A program made the translations under genes and the position numbers. From Gemmatimonadota bacterium (GTDB taxonomy: Bacteria; Gemmatimonadota; Gemmatimonadetes; Gemmatimonadales; Gemmatimonadaceae): a stretch of DNA of 27,885 nt. The notes beneath the pieces were generated by a model that was not told where the DNA came from, searched no databases, and worked only from the letters and a program-made list of their open reading frames with translations. Numbering within the stretch: the first letter of the stretch is position 1; every line of letters starts with the position of its first letter. Positions 8,064 through 15,060 of the stretch are shown here, piece after piece. Location: contig CANJOX010000003.1 in assembly GCA_947475795.1 (NCBI GenBank), forward strand, positions 1 to 27,885, written 5' to 3'.

Positions 8064-8112
8064 TCAATCACGCACCACCACTGGACATCTGCGGCGCCGG
8101 ACGGAATGCTTA

Positions 8113-8140
8113 CCGCCTGCGAACGGCGGCTGAACCGCCG
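8113..8140 (+). promoter_or_regulatory. Competing GC stems upstream of the NSS transporter
   Basis: Three short blocks, CCGCC (8113-8117), CGGCGG (8124-8129) and CCGCCG (8135-8140), allow two mutually exclusive hairpins that share the middle block. They lie 41-68 bases before the preferred TTG start of the transporter. If the gene instead starts at ATG 8106, the blocks are coding and this reading fails. Such short GC stems arise easily by chance in GC-rich DNA. Confidence 0.25.
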
Positions 8141-8180
8141 CGCCGCTGTCCGACTCCATTTCCCACCCATCGGAGCACGC

Positions 8181-9815
8181 TTGTCCTCGTCCAACTCCGG
8201 CTCGAACGAAGCCTGGGGTAGTCGCATCGGTCTCATTCTCGCCATGGCGGGTAATGCGGTCGGTCTCGGCAACTTCCTGCGCTTCCCGCGTCAGGCCGCC
8301 GCCAATGGTGGCGGCTCGTACATGATCGCGTACTTCATCGCGCTGCTGCTGCTTGGCATTCCGCTCATGTGGATCGAGTGGGGCGTCGGCCGCAACGGCG
8401 GCCGCTATCGCAAGGGGCACCTGCCCGGCATGTTCGCGGCGCTGTGGAAGCACCCGGCCGCGAAGTACATCGGCGTCGTGGGCTTGGTGGTGCCGATGGG
8501 CGTGATGATCTACTACACGTACATCGAAAGCTGGACGCTGGCCTTCGCCATCTTCTCGGCCACCAAGGACTACTGGGGCCAGACCACACAGGAAGGGATG
8601 CTCGGGTATCTGCGCTCGTTCCAGGGGCTCACCCCCGAGGGCGGCACGCAGTACCACGCCTCCTACACCCCGTACGCGTTCTTCACCGTCACCCTGCTGA
8701 TCAACATCTGGGTGCTGTCGAAGGGTGTCTCGGGCGGCATCGAGAAGCTCGCCAAGATCGGCATGCCGGTGCTCTTCCTGTTCGCCATTGTGCTGGCAGG
8801 TGTCGTGCTCACGCTGCCCGCGCAGCCGGGTGTCGGCACCACGCCGGCGCAGGGGTTGGAGTTCATCTACGCGCCGGACCTGTCGCGACTGGGTGAGCCG
8901 GGTATCTGGCTGGCGGCTGCCGGTCAGATCTTCTTCACGCTGTCGGTGGGCATGGGCTCGCTGCAGGCGTATGCGTCGTACCTGTCCACCAAGGACGATA
9001 TCGCGCTGAACGGCATCGCGACCGCGGCCACCAACGAGACGGCGGAAGTCGTGCTTGGCGGGTCGATTGCCATTCCGGCGGCCGTGACGTTCTTCGGCGT
9101 GGCGGGTGCCATGCAGATCGCGCAGGGCGGCGCGTTCGACCTGGGCTTCGCCACGATGCCGGTGGTGTTCCAGCAGATCGACAAGACGCTGCCGATCGGC
9201 AACCTGCTTGGCGTGATGTGGTTCGGCCTGCTGTTCTTTGCCGGCATCACGTCGTCGGTGGCCATGCTCACGCCGGTGACGGCCTTCTTCCGCGAAGAGT
9301 TCGGCTTCAAGCGGGAGACGGTGGCGTGGATTCTGGGTGGTATTTGCTTCGCGATCGGCCTGATGCATGTGTACTGGCTCGGCCACGGCTTCCTGGACGA
9401 GTGGGACTACTGGGTCGGGACGTTCGGGCTGGTGCTGGTGGCCGTCACCGAGGTGATCATCTTCGTGTGGATCTTCAAGCCCGAGAACGCGTGGAAGTCC
9501 ATCCACATGGGTGCGGACATCAACATCCCGACGATCTTCAAGTTCATCATGACGTACGTGACGCCGCTCTACTTGCTCATCATCCTCACGTGGTGGGGCA
9601 AGGACGAGGCGCTGCCGATCCTGCTCAACCAGCGTTCCGCCGGCAGTGCGACGCCGGTGTCGGACGCCGACATGCCGTTCATCATGATCTCGCGTGGCAT
9701 TCTGGTGCTCTTCGTGATCGTGTTCCTGTTCTTCATCCGCACGGCGTGGAAGAAGAACGGCTACGACGACCGTAAGGGCTTCGTCGAGATCGACACCAAC
9801 CGCGCGGGGGTCTGA
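8181..9815 (+). CDS. Sodium-dependent transporter, NSS (SNF) family
   Basis: This integral membrane protein of 544 residues carries the NSS hallmark GNAVGLGNFLRFP in the first membrane span (residues 24-36), which forms part of the sodium and substrate sites. About twelve hydrophobic spans follow. These include the second-span GGGSYMIAYFIALLLLGIP and a sodium-site region around FFTLSVGMGSLQAYASYL. The family imports amino acids or similar solutes with Na+. I prefer the TTG at 8181: GGAG sits 5 bases upstream, and the protein then begins MSSSNSGSNEAWGSRIG, directly before the first span. The ATG at 8106 adds 25 arginine-rich residues unlike the family. The stop overlaps the start of a tiny membrane-protein gene as TGATG, a pairing known for the MetP/MetS amino-acid importer. 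The substrate is not predictable from sequence. Confidence 0.94.
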   Translation: MSSSNSGSNEAWGSRIGLILAMAGNAVGLGNFLRFPRQAAANGGGSYMIAYFIALLLLGIPLMWIEWGVGRNGGRYRKGHLPGMFAALWKHPAAKYIGVVGLVVPMGVMIYYTYIESWTLAFAIFSATKDYWGQTTQEGMLGYLRSFQGLTPEGGTQYHASYTPYAFFTVTLLINIWVLSKGVSGGIEKLAKIGMPVLFLFAIVLAGVVLTLPAQPGVGTTPAQGLEFIYAPDLSRLGEPGIWLAAAGQIFFTLSVGMGSLQAYASYLSTKDDIALNGIATAATNETAEVVLGGSIAIPAAVTFFGVAGAMQIAQGGAFDLGFATMPVVFQQIDKTLPIGNLLGVMWFGLLFFAGITSSVAMLTPVTAFFREEFGFKRETVAWILGGICFAIGLMHVYWLGHGFLDEWDYWVGTFGLVLVAVTEVIIFVWIFKPENAWKSIHMGADINIPTIFKFIMTYVTPLYLLIILTWWGKDEALPILLNQRSAGSATPVSDADMPFIMISRGILVLFVIVFLFFIRTAWKKNGYDDRKGFVEIDTNRAGV

Positions 9816-9982
9816 TGTCTGGTGGAGCCATTGCCTTCATGGCGATCAGCTGGACGTTCGTGCTCGGGCTGACCGCCTGGTCGTTCGCGCAGCTGCTGGC
9901 CGATAAGAAGCACTTCGATCCGGATGGCATCGGTCCGGCGTCACCGCCCGAGCCGCCGCACGCGAAGAAAAAGAAGAAATAA
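9815..9982 (+). CDS. Small single-span membrane protein, likely MetS-like partner of the NSS transporter
   Basis: A 55-codon gene begins in the TGATG that ends the transporter and stops at TAA 9980-9982. The protein is MSGGAIAFMAISWTF followed by VLGLTAWSFAQLL: one membrane span (about residues 4-28). A short charged segment (ADKKHFDPDG), a proline-rich stretch and a C-terminal run of five lysines follow. The lysine tail predicts a cytoplasmic C-terminus by the positive-inside rule. Size, position and an N-terminal span right after the methionine all resemble the small subunit of the MetPS methionine/alanine importer described in Corynebacterium. I infer that it is an accessory subunit for the upstream NSS protein. 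It could instead be a lineage-specific short membrane peptide. Coding is supported by the overlap and by the sensible membrane topology. Confidence 0.8.
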   Translation: MSGGAIAFMAISWTFVLGLTAWSFAQLLADKKHFDPDGIGPASPPEPPHAKKKKK

Positions 9983-10005: not shown

Positions 10006-10050
10006 CGGGTCGGAGCGCGTTGTTCAGCGTGCTCCGACCCGATTCTTTTC
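10006..10050 (+). terminator. Perfect 11-bp inverted repeat with T-rich tail, overlapping the photolyase start
   Basis: CGGGTCGGAGC (10006-10016) and GCTCCGACCCG (10031-10041) are perfectly complementary around a 14-base loop, and ATTCTTTTC follows (10042-10050). This is the architecture of an intrinsic terminator for the transporter pair, whose last stop is 24 bases upstream. The same bases hold the GGAG and the candidate GTG/TTG starts of the photolyase fusion. The structure could therefore also hide that gene's ribosome binding site. Structure is seen directly; terminator versus translational control is unresolved. Confidence 0.6.
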
Positions 10051-12410
10051 CCGACCAGCTGGCCGAGCGGATTACCGACCACTCCGGCCCCAACGCGACC
10101 GCCGCTGCCGCCGACGGTGCGTTCGTGATCTACTGGATGCGCACCGCGGTGCGCGCGCACGAAAACCCGGCGCTGGATGTCGCGCTGCTCGCAGCCGCGC
10201 AGCTCGGCGTGCCGGTGTTCGTGTATCACGCGCTCTCCGAGCGGTACCCGTTCGCGTCAGACCGGCACCACACCTTCATCCTGGAAGGGGCGCGGGACGT
10301 GGAAGCCGAGTGCCAGGCGCGCGGGATCGGGTACGCGTTCCACCTCGAGCGCCCCGGGCATCGTGGGCCGGCCCTTCGCACGCTGGCCGCACGGGCGGCG
10401 CTCGTGGTCACCGAGACGTTCCCCGTGGCCCCGTTGGACTGGCTGACCGACTCACTGGCGGACGCCGTGTCGTGCCCGGTGTGGAGTGTGGATACCGCCT
10501 GCGTGGTGCCGATGCCGTTGGTGGGGAAGGCACACACCCGGGCGTTCGCCTTCCGCGATGACACCGCACGGCTGCGGGCGGCGCGGGTGAGCGCGTCGTG
10601 GCGTGATGTGGCGCCGCAGTTGCCCCCGTTCGTGCCGGATGCGTTGCCGTTCGTGCCAGTCCGTCTGGCCGACGCAGACCTCGCGGCGCTGGTAGCGGCG
10701 TGCGAGATCGACCACGGGGTGGCGGCCGTGCCGCACACCCCCGGCGGGACGCTGGCGGGGTATGCGCGGTGGCAGGCGTTCGTGGAATCGGGGCGGCTGG
10801 ACCGCTACGCCGCCAAGCGGAACGATGCCACGATCGACGGCGTGAGCCGCATGTCGGCGTATTTCCACTACGGGATGGTGTCGCCCTTCCGCGTGGTGCG
10901 CGAGTGCGTGACGCGCGGTGGGGCGGGCGCCGAGAAGTATCTCGACGAATTGCTCGTGTGGCGCGAACTGGCCTACGCCTTCTGCTACTGGCACGATGCG
11001 CCGGACACGCTGGACGCGATCCCGGGGTGGGCGCGCGAGACACTCGCCCAGCACGAGCAGGACCGGCGCACGGTGCATTCGTGGGAGACGCTGGCGCGCG
11101 GCCGCACCGGCGATGCGCTGTGGGACGAGACGCAGGCATCACTGCGCATCCACGGCGAGCTGCACAACAACGTGCGCATGACGTGGGGCAAGGCCATTCC
11201 GACGTGGTCGGCGGGGGCGGCCGACGCGCTGGAGCGGCTGATCGACCTGAATCACCGGTACGCCCTCGACGGACGCGATCCCGCCTCGTTCGGGGGACTC
11301 TTGTGGTGCCTCGGGCAGTTCGACCGTCCCTTCACGCCGCCGGTGGCAGTGCTGGGGACCGTCCGTCCACGCACCACCGAATCACACGTTGAGCGCATGA
11401 ACCTGCCGGCGTACCGGGCGCACGTGCGGCGCCCCGTGGGTGCCACGCCGCGCGTGCTGGTGATCGGTGCTGGCATGGCGGGTCTCGCGTGCGCGCGGAC
11501 GCTGCACGACCACGGCCTCGACGTGACCGTGCTGGACAAGAGCCGAGGGGTGGGCGGCCGGCTGAGCTCACGGCGCGAGGGGGTGTGGCAGTTCGATCAC
11601 GGGGCGCCCGCGTTCCGTCTGGACGACCGCCGAACGGCGCCGTTCGCGACGTCCTGGCAGGCCGACGGCGTGCTGCAGGCGCAGGCCGACGGCGCCTTCA
11701 TCGGCGCGCGCGGCATGAACGCGCTGCCGAAGCACCTCGCGACCGATCTCACGGTGCGCACCGGTGTGCAGGTCGCGTCGATGACGCGCGACGGCGCGCG
11801 CTGGACGGTCACGGGCGCCACCGGGGGCACCCACACGGCCGACATCGTGGTGCTGGCCACGCCGGCGCCGCAGGCCGTCACGCTGCTCGGGACGTCGCCC
11901 GAGACGGCCGACCTGACCGCGACGCTGGCCGGCGTGCGCATGCTGCCCTGCTGGAGCACGATGGTGGTGTTCGACGCGCCGCCGTCGGCCGCCGTGGCTG
12001 CCTCCCTGCGCGACGGGCTGGCCAAGAGCGACGACCCGCGTGTGCATCGCGCGTGGCGGCAGTCGGTGCGCCCGGGCCGCCTGCCCGACGAGGCGTGGGT
12101 GGTGCACAGCGAAGGCGCGTGGAGCGCCGAGCACGTGGAGGCCACGCCGGCCGAGATCGCGGCACAGGTGTCGGAGGCGCTCCGGGCGCGCCTGGCGATT
12201 GACGGGGCGGTGGTGCACGCAGTGGCACACCGTTGGCGTTACGCGCGCGTGGCGTCGGGGCTGGACGACGCCTGCCTGTTCGACGCGGGGCGTGGTGTGG
12301 GCGCCTGCGGCGACTGGGGGGAGGCTGGCGCGACGCGCCGGGTACGGACCTCGGTGGAACGCGCGTGGCTGAGCGGTATTGCGCTCGCGGGGCGCGTGCT
12401 CGGGCGGTAG
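10029..12410 (+). CDS. Class II-like DNA photolyase fused to a renalase-like FAD/NAD(P) oxidoreductase
   Basis: One uninterrupted frame of 793 residues joins two flavoproteins. Residues ~1-455 are photolyase. The first strand reads FVIYWM (class II style 'YVLYWM'). They then carry SAYFHYGMVSP, WRELAY (311-316), HNNVRMTWGK (379-388) and YALDGRDP (411-418), matching class II cyclobutane dimer photolyases that repair UV lesions with light and FAD. After a short linker, ~473-793 form an FAD-binding Rossmann oxidoreductase: VIGAGMAG (478-485), GVGGRLSSR, FDHGAPAF, HRWRYA (734-739) and CGDW...VERAWLSG near the end. This is the renalase/COG3380 pattern. Renalase enzymes oxidise inhibitory NAD(P)H isomers. 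The start is uncertain: GTG 10029 or TTG 10020, both inside a hairpin; a longer frame from 9924 would overlap the small membrane gene and adds a basic, unlikely head. Both halves look intact. DNA-repair activity is likely, but a (6-4) or cryptochrome role is not excluded. Confidence 0.9.
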   Translation: MLRPDSFPDQLAERITDHSGPNATAAAADGAFVIYWMRTAVRAHENPALDVALLAAAQLGVPVFVYHALSERYPFASDRHHTFILEGARDVEAECQARGIGYAFHLERPGHRGPALRTLAARAALVVTETFPVAPLDWLTDSLADAVSCPVWSVDTACVVPMPLVGKAHTRAFAFRDDTARLRAARVSASWRDVAPQLPPFVPDALPFVPVRLADADLAALVAACEIDHGVAAVPHTPGGTLAGYARWQAFVESGRLDRYAAKRNDATIDGVSRMSAYFHYGMVSPFRVVRECVTRGGAGAEKYLDELLVWRELAYAFCYWHDAPDTLDAIPGWARETLAQHEQDRRTVHSWETLARGRTGDALWDETQASLRIHGELHNNVRMTWGKAIPTWSAGAADALERLIDLNHRYALDGRDPASFGGLLWCLGQFDRPFTPPVAVLGTVRPRTTESHVERMNLPAYRAHVRRPVGATPRVLVIGAGMAGLACARTLHDHGLDVTVLDKSRGVGGRLSSRREGVWQFDHGAPAFRLDDRRTAPFATSWQADGVLQAQADGAFIGARGMNALPKHLATDLTVRTGVQVASMTRDGARWTVTGATGGTHTADIVVLATPAPQAVTLLGTSPETADLTATLAGVRMLPCWSTMVVFDAPPSAAVAASLRDGLAKSDDPRVHRAWRQSVRPGRLPDEAWVVHSEGAWSAEHVEATPAEIAAQVSEALRARLAIDGAVVHAVAHRWRYARVASGLDDACLFDAGRGVGACGDWGEAGATRRVRTSVERAWLSGIALAGRVLGR

Positions 12411-12458: not shown

Positions 12459-13208
12459 TTACTTGCTGATCCCTTCGGGGGCCTTGAAGAGCGCGGGGTC
12501 GGGGAGCGCAAACACCACCGCGGTGGTGGTGAGCACCACATCGCCCTGCGGCGTGCTCTGAGTGACCGTGGTGGGGATCAGCTTGCCCTCGAACGCCTTG
12601 TAGTCGTGAAGCGTAGCCTTCTGGTCGCCCATCGGGGACTTCGTGATGACGCCGCGGCGCAGTCCGGTGGCCACCTCGAAGTACTCGGTGCGAACCTCCC
12701 CGGACTTCGCGGTGATGGAGAGTTTGTAGCAGTCGACGCCGTCGAACGATTCCCGGGCGTCCACAGAGGCCCTGACAAACCGGCCGGCGTCGAGAAACTC
12801 CGCGCCGACCTGGACCGTCTCGGCCAGCGACTTTTCCTGATCGGGGGGCATGCGTGTGGCGGCGCCCATGGGCTGCACCGCCCACCCCACGGTGCCGTCA
12901 AACCCCTGATCGAGCTTGGCCATGCCGAGATCGATGATCATCCGCATCTTGTTCGGCGCGCCGGTGTGCCGTTCGTACGCGCCGGTGAGACCAGCGAAGG
13001 TGATGTTCGCGGTTCCCTTGTCGCTCCGCCCCTGCACCTTGGCCCACGCCTCACGGCCGCCCACGGCGGTGGCGAAGTGTTCAAACACCTGCTGGACCGT
13101 GGGCAGCTGGGCCGCAGGTGCCTGGGCCATCGGCGCCTGGCCCCGCGCGGGGGTGGCGATCACGCTCGCCACCACGGCGGCGATCCCGACCTGTCGTACG
13201 AAACGCAT
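12459..13208 (-). CDS. Secreted LolA-like / outer-membrane lipoprotein-sorting-like protein
   Basis: The 249-residue protein starts at ATG 13208, preceded by GGAG with a 5-base spacer, which rejects the 8-codon longer reading. It has a signal peptide (MRFVRQVGIAAVVASVIATPARGQA). The mature part opens with LPTVQQVFEHFATAVGG, then a series of beta-strands (KGTANITFAGLTGAYERHT, NKMRMIIDLG, GWAVQP) and a pattern ending in a 'DYKAFEGKLIPTTV' strand. This resembles the LolA/LppX-like fold group often annotated as outer membrane lipoprotein-sorting protein in Acidobacteria and Gemmatimonadota. No catalytic residues are evident; binding of a lipid or acyl chain in the periplasm is the usual guess. 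It lies 68 bases downstream of the M3 peptidase gene on the same strand, so it may belong to that transcript. Confidence 0.78.
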   Translation of the reverse strand: MRFVRQVGIAAVVASVIATPARGQAPMAQAPAAQLPTVQQVFEHFATAVGGREAWAKVQGRSDKGTANITFAGLTGAYERHTGAPNKMRMIIDLGMAKLDQGFDGTVGWAVQPMGAATRMPPDQEKSLAETVQVGAEFLDAGRFVRASVDARESFDGVDCYKLSITAKSGEVRTEYFEVATGLRRGVITKSPMGDQKATLHDYKAFEGKLIPTTVTQSTPQGDVVLTTTAVVFALPDPALFKAPEGISK

Positions 13209-13276
13209 GGAAGCTCCGAGGGAGAGGGTCATGCCCCGGATACGATCATGGCGCCCAAAGGTTTCCTACCGCGCCC

Positions 13277-15031
13277 TCACGCCGGCAGCACGCCCTGAAA
13301 CGGGGCGTCGGCCCCGGCGCGCAGCGCCGCGATGCGCTCCTCGGCGAACGCCACCAGCTCTGCCATGGTGTCCGCATCGAACACCAGCTTGACGCCGGCG
13401 GCGGCGTACAACTCGGGGAGCGGGCGGGTGCCGCCGAGCGCCAGGAAGCGCTTGTAGGCCGCCACGGCGTCACCGGCATCGTGCACCGCGTTGCGGAACA
13501 CCTGCAGCGCCCCGAGCTGCGCGAGCCCGTACTCGATGTAGTAGAACGGCAGTTCGAAGATGTGCAGCTGCCGGTACCAGCGTCCCACGCGCTCACGCTC
13601 GAGCCCCGTCCAGTCTACCCCTGACTCGAAGTCGCGGCGCAGCTCGAGCCACTTCGCGTCGCGGGCGTCGCGGTCGGCACCGGCGGGATCGGTGTAGATC
13701 CATGCCTGGAATGCGTCCACGCTGGCGATGTGCACGAGGCTGCCCAGCACGTCTTCGAGGTGCTCCAGCCACGCCACCCGCGCCTGATCGGGGGTGTAGT
13801 AACCGTCGGGGGCCACGAAGTAGGGCATGGCCAGCAGCTCCATGCTCATGGACGCGAGTTCGGCGGCCTCGTGTCCGGTTCGACGTTGCCATGTGAACGG
13901 CAGCCGATGCGTGGCGAAATCGTGGAAGCAGTGCCCCGCCTCGTGCACGAGCGTCTGCACGTCGTCGGGGACACCGACGGCATTCATGAAAATGAACGGG
14001 CGACCGCGGAACGGGAGATCGGTGCAGTAGCCACCGGGCGCCTTCCCCGGCCGGCTTTCGAGATCGAGCAGCTGCTCGTCGGCCATGATCGCGAACTGCG
14101 CACCAAGCTCCGGATCGACGCGCTGGAAGATGTTCTTCGCGCGATCGATGAAGGTGTCCACGTCCGCGAACGGCCGGAGCGGCTCGTCGGCATTGAGATC
14201 GACCGACACATCCCACGGGCGCAGCACGTCCACGCCCAGCGTGGCGCGGCGATGCTCCATGAGGCGCGCGAAGGCCGGCGCCACGGTGGTGCGCACCGCG
14301 TCGTGAAAGCGCGCGGTATCCTGCGGCGTATAGTCGAACCGATGTTTGGCCGCGAAGCAATACTGCTGAAAGTCGGAAAACCCGGCTTCGGTGGCGACCG
14401 CCGTGCGGAGCGCGTACATCTTGTCGAACAGGTCGGCGAACTCGTCGCGCTTGGCCATGTAGGCGTCGGCGCCGAGGCGGAACGCGCGTTCGCGCACCGC
14501 ACGATCGGGCGACTTGAGATACGGCTGCAGCTGCGGGATGGTTTTTGCCGCGCCGTCCCAGTCGACGCTGAGGCCGCCGGTGAGCTTCTGATAGGCGGCC
14601 GAGTACTCTTCGATCTGGGAGAAGCGCGCAACGTTTGCTTCGCGGAAGATCTCGATGTCGGTGCGGAACCGACGCAACGTGGTGTCGAGATCCGGGCGCG
14701 ACCAGCCCAGATCGAGCAGACGTTTGGCGAGGCGCACGCCCTGCTCTTCCAGTTGCGGGAAGATCGTCATGGAGAAGCGGAGGTACGCCTGTTCCGCCGC
14801 CGTGTCCGCCGTGTTGCCCGTGTAGGCAATCATGGCCAGCGAACCGGCCTCGCCCACCAGCGTATCGAGCCGCGACCACGTGCGGAGCCACGACTCGACC
14901 ACCGCATCGGTGGTATCGAGCGGCACCGCCGCGAGCGCGTCGTAGTACGGCAGGACGTCATCCCACGTGGCATCGCGGAGGGCGTCGGGTGAGACCGGAA
15001 GTTGAATCATGGTGTCGAAAAAAGGTCGCAT
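13277..15031 (-). CDS. M3 family oligoendopeptidase (zinc metallopeptidase)
   Basis: The 584-residue protein is a complete M3-type peptidase. The zinc motif HEAGH is at about 363-367 (H363 and H367 as ligands, E364 catalytic), and the third ligand is probably the Glu at about 391 in EAAELASMSMELL. Downstream tyrosines in FELPFYYIEYGLAQLGA match the substrate-binding region of the PepF/thimet-like fold. No signal peptide is visible, so it should cleave short peptides in the cytoplasm. ATG 15031 is a tentative choice between GTG 15040 and ATG 15010; none has a Shine-Dalgarno sequence, and the conserved region begins soon after 15010 (LPVSPDALRDATWDD). The gene follows the ALDH16-type gene by about 30 bases, so it is probably in the same operon, though no metabolic link is obvious. 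Confidence 0.93.
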   Translation of the reverse strand: MRPFFDTMIQLPVSPDALRDATWDDVLPYYDALAAVPLDTTDAVVESWLRTWSRLDTLVGEAGSLAMIAYTGNTADTAAEQAYLRFSMTIFPQLEEQGVRLAKRLLDLGWSRPDLDTTLRRFRTDIEIFREANVARFSQIEEYSAAYQKLTGGLSVDWDGAAKTIPQLQPYLKSPDRAVRERAFRLGADAYMAKRDEFADLFDKMYALRTAVATEAGFSDFQQYCFAAKHRFDYTPQDTARFHDAVRTTVAPAFARLMEHRRATLGVDVLRPWDVSVDLNADEPLRPFADVDTFIDRAKNIFQRVDPELGAQFAIMADEQLLDLESRPGKAPGGYCTDLPFRGRPFIFMNAVGVPDDVQTLVHEAGHCFHDFATHRLPFTWQRRTGHEAAELASMSMELLAMPYFVAPDGYYTPDQARVAWLEHLEDVLGSLVHIASVDAFQAWIYTDPAGADRDARDAKWLELRRDFESGVDWTGLERERVGRWYRQLHIFELPFYYIEYGLAQLGALQVFRNAVHDAGDAVAAYKRFLALGGTRPLPELYAAAGVKLVFDADTMAELVAFAEERIAALRAGADAPFQGVLPA

Positions 15032-15060
15032 GTCGTGCACACGTCGCTCGCGGCGGCGCG

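Follow-up and report, generated by a model that had tools for sequence, protein, structure and literature searches.

The systems closest to the gene described here are the class II cyclobutane pyrimidine dimer (CPD) photolyase of M. mazei, MmCPDII (PDB 2xry/4cdn), and the bacterial renalases of P. phaseolicola (PDB 4zcc/4zcd/5krq) and P. syringae (Q888A4, 3kkj), which are stand-alone enzymes. Human renalase is reported to return 2- and 6-dihydro-NAD(P), which are inhibitory isomers of nicotinamide adenine dinucleotide (phosphate), NAD(P), to NAD(P)+ with formation of hydrogen peroxide (PMC12565349, PMC5655536). Accounts of photolyase regulons under RpoE-ChrR or LitR control describe a flavin-containing oxidoreductase whose gene accompanies phrB and is switched on by light or oxidative stress (PMC5507510, PMC9758184). 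In this study, we analysed a 27,885-nucleotide stretch from a Gemmatimonadota bacterium (contig CANJOX010000003.1; the whole stretch is called the window), in which one forward-strand gene (10029-12410) encodes, without an internal stop, a protein of 793 residues (P0001) that begins as a class II-type photolyase and ends as a bacterial renalase-type flavin adenine dinucleotide (FAD) oxidoreductase. We consider the chances somewhat better than even that this protein is a single bifunctional light-stress enzyme, in which a class II-type CPD photolyase and a renalase-type flavoenzyme have been joined for co-production.

A reading of the window from its sequence only had proposed a class II-like photolyase and a renalase/COG3380-type enzyme in one polypeptide, and this proposal is borne out by the open frame, the motifs, the matches of both domains and the conserved joint. 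By model and sequence, the N-terminal half has the class II photolyase fold; it matches the M. mazei enzyme 2xry with an E value of 2.5e-53. The C-terminal half has, on the same grounds, the NAD(H)-binding bacterial renalase fold; it matches the bacterial renalase 4zcc (E 2.3e-38) and fits NADH-bound renalase over the whole domain with a root-mean-square deviation of 1.6. The translation contains GAGMAG, GVGGRL, HRWRYA, CGDW and VERAWLSG. Its frame is open further upstream, to an ATG at 9924 (828 amino acids); the homologue P0014 starts at the GTG corresponding to 10029 and P0002 three codons upstream of that GTG. Among the genomes compared, the closest is G001, whose fused gene is 96% identical to that of the window; with the names of the homologues, mostly Gemmatimonadota, this places the window in a Gemmatimonas-like bacterium.

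The homologues show that the fusion is genuine and its joint no artefact. A search with P0001 returned 2981 homologues, and among the best 120, which were named mostly as Gemmatimonadota, 118 span at least 95% of the query; the remaining two are N-terminally short (631 and 640 amino acids) and still cover the joint. From a scan of named species genomes that gave 413 related loci, the best 80 were kept, a set biased to full-length matches. The joint lies in one open frame in all of these 80, which include the chromosome records CP036526 and CP036272; at one locus (L030) the contig ends inside the C half. The sequence-only reading had named a stop or frameshift near the joint, or homologues with always separate halves, as signs of an assembly or sequencing artefact; in the homologues, the joint is instead read through in a single frame. 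All 74 loci that match both search patterns have 101 or 102 residues between the photolyase motif H-x-x-x-R-M-x-W and the renalase Rossmann motif, the other six of the 80 having missed one pattern. Because the length of the joint is fixed, it speaks for halves that are packed rather than floppy. The whole-chain structure prediction is confident, with a predicted template modelling score (pTM) of 0.94.

The residues of the photolyase half were compared between 75 fused proteins and 18 separate bacterial class II photolyases, with the M. mazei enzyme as reference. The M. mazei numbering (the 2xry chain index minus 18) and the residue roles are those we take to apply, the numbering being in agreement with the variants W388F and Y345F in PDB titles. 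The equivalents of R256, E301, W305, M379, W381, N403, W421 and D428 are identical in all 75 fused proteins, and those of W360, W388 and R429 in 74. Among them are E301, W305, N403, W421 and D428, presumably the lesion and FAD residues, and the tryptophan pair or triad W360, W381 and W388, present in P0001 as W365, W386 and W393. As these equivalents of catalytic residues are conserved across the fused proteins, the N half is likely an active CPD photolyase. Besides the frequent loss of the relay tyrosine described below, two exchanges relative to MmCPDII mark the fused clade, Y376 to N (73/75 fused, with Y in 15 of the 18 separate enzymes) and W431 to F (68/75, with W in 14 of 18), and its lesion pocket and electron chain are perhaps changed. 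The motif HNN as such was rejected as a speciality of the clade, since most separate class II enzymes in our set have HNY and chiefly the third letter differs.

For the renalase half, the 70 aligned fused proteins were compared at 44 positions conserved among Pseudomonadales renalases (18 sequences, from 17 loci and 4zcc). P0001 retains 32 of the 44, including the FAD glycines, K504, R511, D523, P612, Q615, W642, W698, H734, W736, G761, D762, E777 and S782. Most of the 44 positions are kept across the fused family, which overall looks like a working renalase, whereas the C half of the Gemmatimonas branch may have shifted in substrate.

In the photolyase trees, built from 39 of the 70 fused alignment rows plus five more, the 18 bacterial class II photolyases and the M. 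mazei enzyme, the fused photolyase halves sampled, 44 in all, group with two unfused photolyases in one clade with support of 100/100. The two unfused members, L093 (1767-3206, forward strand) and L148 (2318-4063, forward strand), lack the renalase half, and as both nest within the fused clade they have apparently lost it. The placement of L093 comes from a quick tree and a second tree, that of L148 from the second tree only, in which L154 was in the wrong frame. L093 is flanked by amidohydrolase-like and M3-peptidase-like frames, an arrangement resembling the surroundings of the window gene. With the alphaproteobacterial L154 (643-3060, reverse strand) added in its right frame, a further quick tree still gives one clade with support of 100, L154 itself sitting on a very long branch. 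The photolyase half of L154 has lost the equivalents of E301, W305, M379, W381, N403, W421, D428 and R429, and it is possibly a pseudo-photolyase retained as a partner or scaffold.

The occurrence of the clade was counted with the photolyase half alone as query, which is a fairer count than that of full-length loci; in every census, some of the genomes had provided the query or had been found through it. The fused state was taken from frame length for most matches and by direct comparison for L095-L098, L125, L127, L155-L157 and the scan loci. The clade is present in 30 of 394 Gemmatimonadota genomes (at least 54% identity, with the next matches no higher than 45%), fused in 29 of them and unfused in G022, and in 7 of 246 Planctomycetota genomes, all with frames of 836-946 amino acids. 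Among 188 Myxococcota genomes, 17 carry it (at least 48% identity), 16 with frames of 791-1049 amino acids and one, G837 with locus L148, unfused; among 289 Alphaproteobacteria genomes there are two, both fused and both reached via loci of this analysis, the degenerate fused form of G1005 being excluded. Altogether 56 of 1117 genomes (about 5%) carry the clade, and 54 of the 56 are fused. A contig-edge fragment in G027 (residues 415-793) stands outside this count, the readable sequence of G109 breaks off within the C half, and the fused gene of G181 ends with its contig. The photolyase-renalase protein is a widespread pairing of two known enzyme families that is conserved in several phyla; it had been called unusual, and the clade is present in about one in twenty of the genomes counted, but these span at least four phyla. 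Three members deserve comment. The fused gene of L096, in the single-contig genome G104, is frame-shifted within its photolyase part. L085, labelled Klebsiella pneumoniae, groups with Pirellulaceae, and the label of this metagenome bin is probably wrong. L025, labelled Candidatus Kuenenia, has coordinates and length identical to those of the G011 match, which comes from the window's genus, and is probably another mislabelled bin.

Where the two genes are separate, their association is real but patchy, and two photolyase classes occur across the two settings. From 52 matching genomes among 145 Pseudomonadales, 20 loci were chosen by score (17 from the top and three from further down) rather than at random. 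In seven of these, the renalase gene is no more than 2.5 kb away from a class I photolyase gene on the same strand, with a MerR-type regulator between them, and in three of the seven a CbiX-like and a DUF1722 gene both lie in this interval as well. An eighth, L144, has a weaker photolyase match, and L145 carries, besides its renalase, another Rossmann-type gene on the far side of its photolyase. A Pfam check covered the L134 cluster, the regulator of L142 and the photolyase of L130. These clusters (renalase, CbiX-like, DUF523/DUF1722 or 2-thiouracil desulfurase, MerR and class I PhrB) tie the same renalase family to a photolyase, but as separate adjacent genes and with a class I enzyme in place of the fused class II-type one. 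The suggestion that COG3380-type genes often neighbour photolyase genes therefore stands for these seven of 20 chosen loci, but not for the stand-alone Gemmatimonadota renalases, where a photolyase lay beside the gene in none of 12 loci, with 7-11.5 kb examined at each. The RpoE-ChrR and LitR regulons resemble the fused gene in pairing a photolyase with a flavin-containing oxidoreductase; that protein (PSPTO_1118, PME6625) probably belongs to COG2907. A search of the open-access literature, with most subscription papers outside its scope, gave no mention of a photolyase-renalase or COG3380-photolyase pair.

If the protein is indeed bifunctional, the N half would bind FAD, be photoreduced via the class II tryptophan chain and reverse pyrimidine dimers, and the C half would act on misformed dihydro-pyridine nucleotides, oxidising 2- and 6-dihydro-NAD(P) to NAD(P)+. 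Being short and invariant in length, the joint would fix the arrangement of the halves. We infer that the main gain of the fusion would be the production of both enzymes together, in a one-to-one ratio, under the same stress, in which light would give rise to pyrimidine dimers and oxidative stress would disturb the NAD(P)H pool.

Several observations weigh against this reading, besides the 12 Gemmatimonadota neighbourhoods that lack a photolyase. The N half scores 278 bits (E 1.9e-82) with TIGR00591, the NCBIfam class II model, below its 550-bit cut-off, and the equivalent of the M. mazei relay tyrosine Y345 is a tyrosine in only 24 of 75 fused proteins (missing in 51) compared with all 18 separate enzymes; P0001 has H350 at this position. 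A tyrosine, Y434 in X. laevis, is described as conserved in class II enzymes (PMC7560933). Y345 was equated with Y434 by its spacing of 15 from the first tryptophan. The fused enzyme is seldom the only one of its kind, as a further photolyase-half match occurs in 16 of 20 fused-bearing genomes from several phyla and in each of the 18 genomes in the window's genus that carry the clade. One genome, G029, which is probably that of G. phototrophica, has three photolyase-domain genes above the cut-off. Light is reported to switch on two photolyases in G. phototrophica (PMC11406998). With three such genes in G029, the fused gene cannot be named among the two light-induced ones. On the renalase side, the window copy differs from bacterial renalases at 12 of the 44 conserved positions, and its substrate may therefore differ, and hydrogen peroxide would be an awkward product next to DNA. 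The partnership can also be broken, as G022 and G837 have the photolyase without its renalase half and L154 is degenerate, its frame and much of its C half persisting. Finally, the fused C halves do not group as one clade against stand-alone renalases. In a tree of the same 39 fused rows, which excludes L121 and L124 as broken or partial matches, as well as L143, L144 and L146, whose frames the motif pattern had missed, ten stand-alone Gemmatimonadota genes (L113-L120, L122 and L123) fall among the 39 fused C halves, for example L115 with P0070/P0117 at a Shimodaira-Hasegawa-like approximate likelihood ratio test (SH-aLRT) value of 99. That tree, in which many of the branches concerned are weak, implies seven changes between the fused and stand-alone states, and the branches starred in it force at least two; C halves may have escaped from the fusion or been replaced several times.

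Among the alternatives, the one that fares best, although we regard it as unlikely, is that co-regulated genes were joined for convenience and the joint has been kept by inertia, with no functional gain from the covalent link. The two apparent C-half losses, the stand-alone renalases among the fused C halves, as if the halves part readily, and a C half less conserved than the N half (69% and 82% identity, respectively, between P0001 and P0014) would all fit such a history. It is harder to reconcile with a fusion kept in 54 of 56 clade-bearing genomes from four phyla and with a joint that varies by no more than one residue in 74 of 74 loci. A rather less probable proposal is an electron-coupled machine, in which the C half passes nucleotide electrons over a fixed interface to the photolyase flavin or tryptophan chain, or the excited photolyase drives the C half. 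The fixed joint and confident whole-chain model, and two FAD-type domains per chain, are consistent with it, and a terminal relay tyrosine missing in 51 of 75 fused but 0 of 18 separate enzymes would fit a new entry for electrons. However, the loss does not track fusion, as the unfused L093 and L148 lack the tyrosine too and 24 fused proteins keep it; shared with unfused relatives, the loss is weakened as a sign of coupling. Moreover, the tryptophan chain is intact, and renalase is described as making hydrogen peroxide, with electrons going to oxygen. The most specific form of the proposal, which seems doubtful to us, is that misformed NAD(P)H isomers give up electrons to the renalase half and that these reach the photolyase flavin over a rigid interface; if true, damaged cofactor would become reducing power for the repair of light-damaged DNA. 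It is about as improbable, or slightly more so, that the Gemmatimonas C half was repurposed for another substrate or a mainly structural role, with renalase activity kept in the other phyla. Nine of the 12 changed positions of P0001 fall in 527-581 and 674-681, a stretch near 553-556 that most fused proteins have is missing from it, and the other fused proteins mostly keep the positions changed in P0001 (4zcc W81 in 62/70, P107 in 65/70 and K219 in 63/70); the FAD motifs, the retained residues H734, W736, G761, D762, E777 and S782, and the close whole-domain fit to NADH-bound renalase argue otherwise. An artefact of assembly or sequencing that fused two genes is ruled out for practical purposes by the same joint in all 80 kept loci, chromosome records included.

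The fused gene lies downstream of a sodium symporter gene (8106-9815) and is followed, on the opposite strand, by an M3 peptidase gene (13277-15040), with an unassigned frame at 12459-13232 in between. A 16-bp inverted repeat overlaps its start codon, the 3' arm forming the first codons of the gene. The repeat also occurs in L012, L013, L018-L021, L023 and L024, more weakly in L016, and is absent from the relatives L014, L015, L022 and L026; it is kept with either a symporter or an amidohydrolase gene upstream. Its core is present in a single copy, at the fused gene, in seven of seven fused-bearing genomes searched and in neither of two genomes without the fused gene. Pairing is seen in 87.5% of cells, barely exceeding shuffles, and covariation is slight. 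The repeat may be an operator, a start-codon hairpin or a terminator.

Table 1. Positions of the fused gene and its features in the window
Feature	Residues	Coordinates	Strand	Remarks
Fused photolyase-renalase gene	793 aa	10029..12410	+	
N half, class II-type photolyase	~28-467	10110..11429	+	
Short joint	468-473	11430..11447	+	Predicted helix 459-466, strand from 475; constant motif spacing
C half, bacterial renalase-type FAD oxidoreductase	474-793	11448..12407	+	
Electron-chain tryptophan (M. mazei W360)	W365	11121..11123	+	W in 74/75 fused
Electron-chain tryptophan (M. mazei W381)	W386	11184..11186	+	W in 75/75 fused
Electron-chain tryptophan (M. mazei W388)	W393	11205..11207	+	W in 74/75 fused
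Clade motif HNNVRMTW	379-386	11163..11186	+	N381 in place of M. mazei Y376
C-half FAD motif GAGMAG	480-485	11466..11483	+	Three glycines in 70/70 fused
HRWRYA motif	734-739	12228..12245	+	
CGDW motif	760-763	12306..12317	+	
VERAWLSG motif	776-783	12354..12377	+	
16-bp inverted repeat overlapping start codon		10006..10041	+	Shared with several close relatives

Two enzyme families that are adjacent in some Pseudomonadales are stably and covalently joined in other phyla, and a renalase, known elsewhere as a stand-alone enzyme, here forms the C-terminal part of a photolyase protein. The fusion ties bacterial renalase to light damage, and it enables a direct test of whether an attached NAD(P)H-handling flavoenzyme benefits a photolyase.
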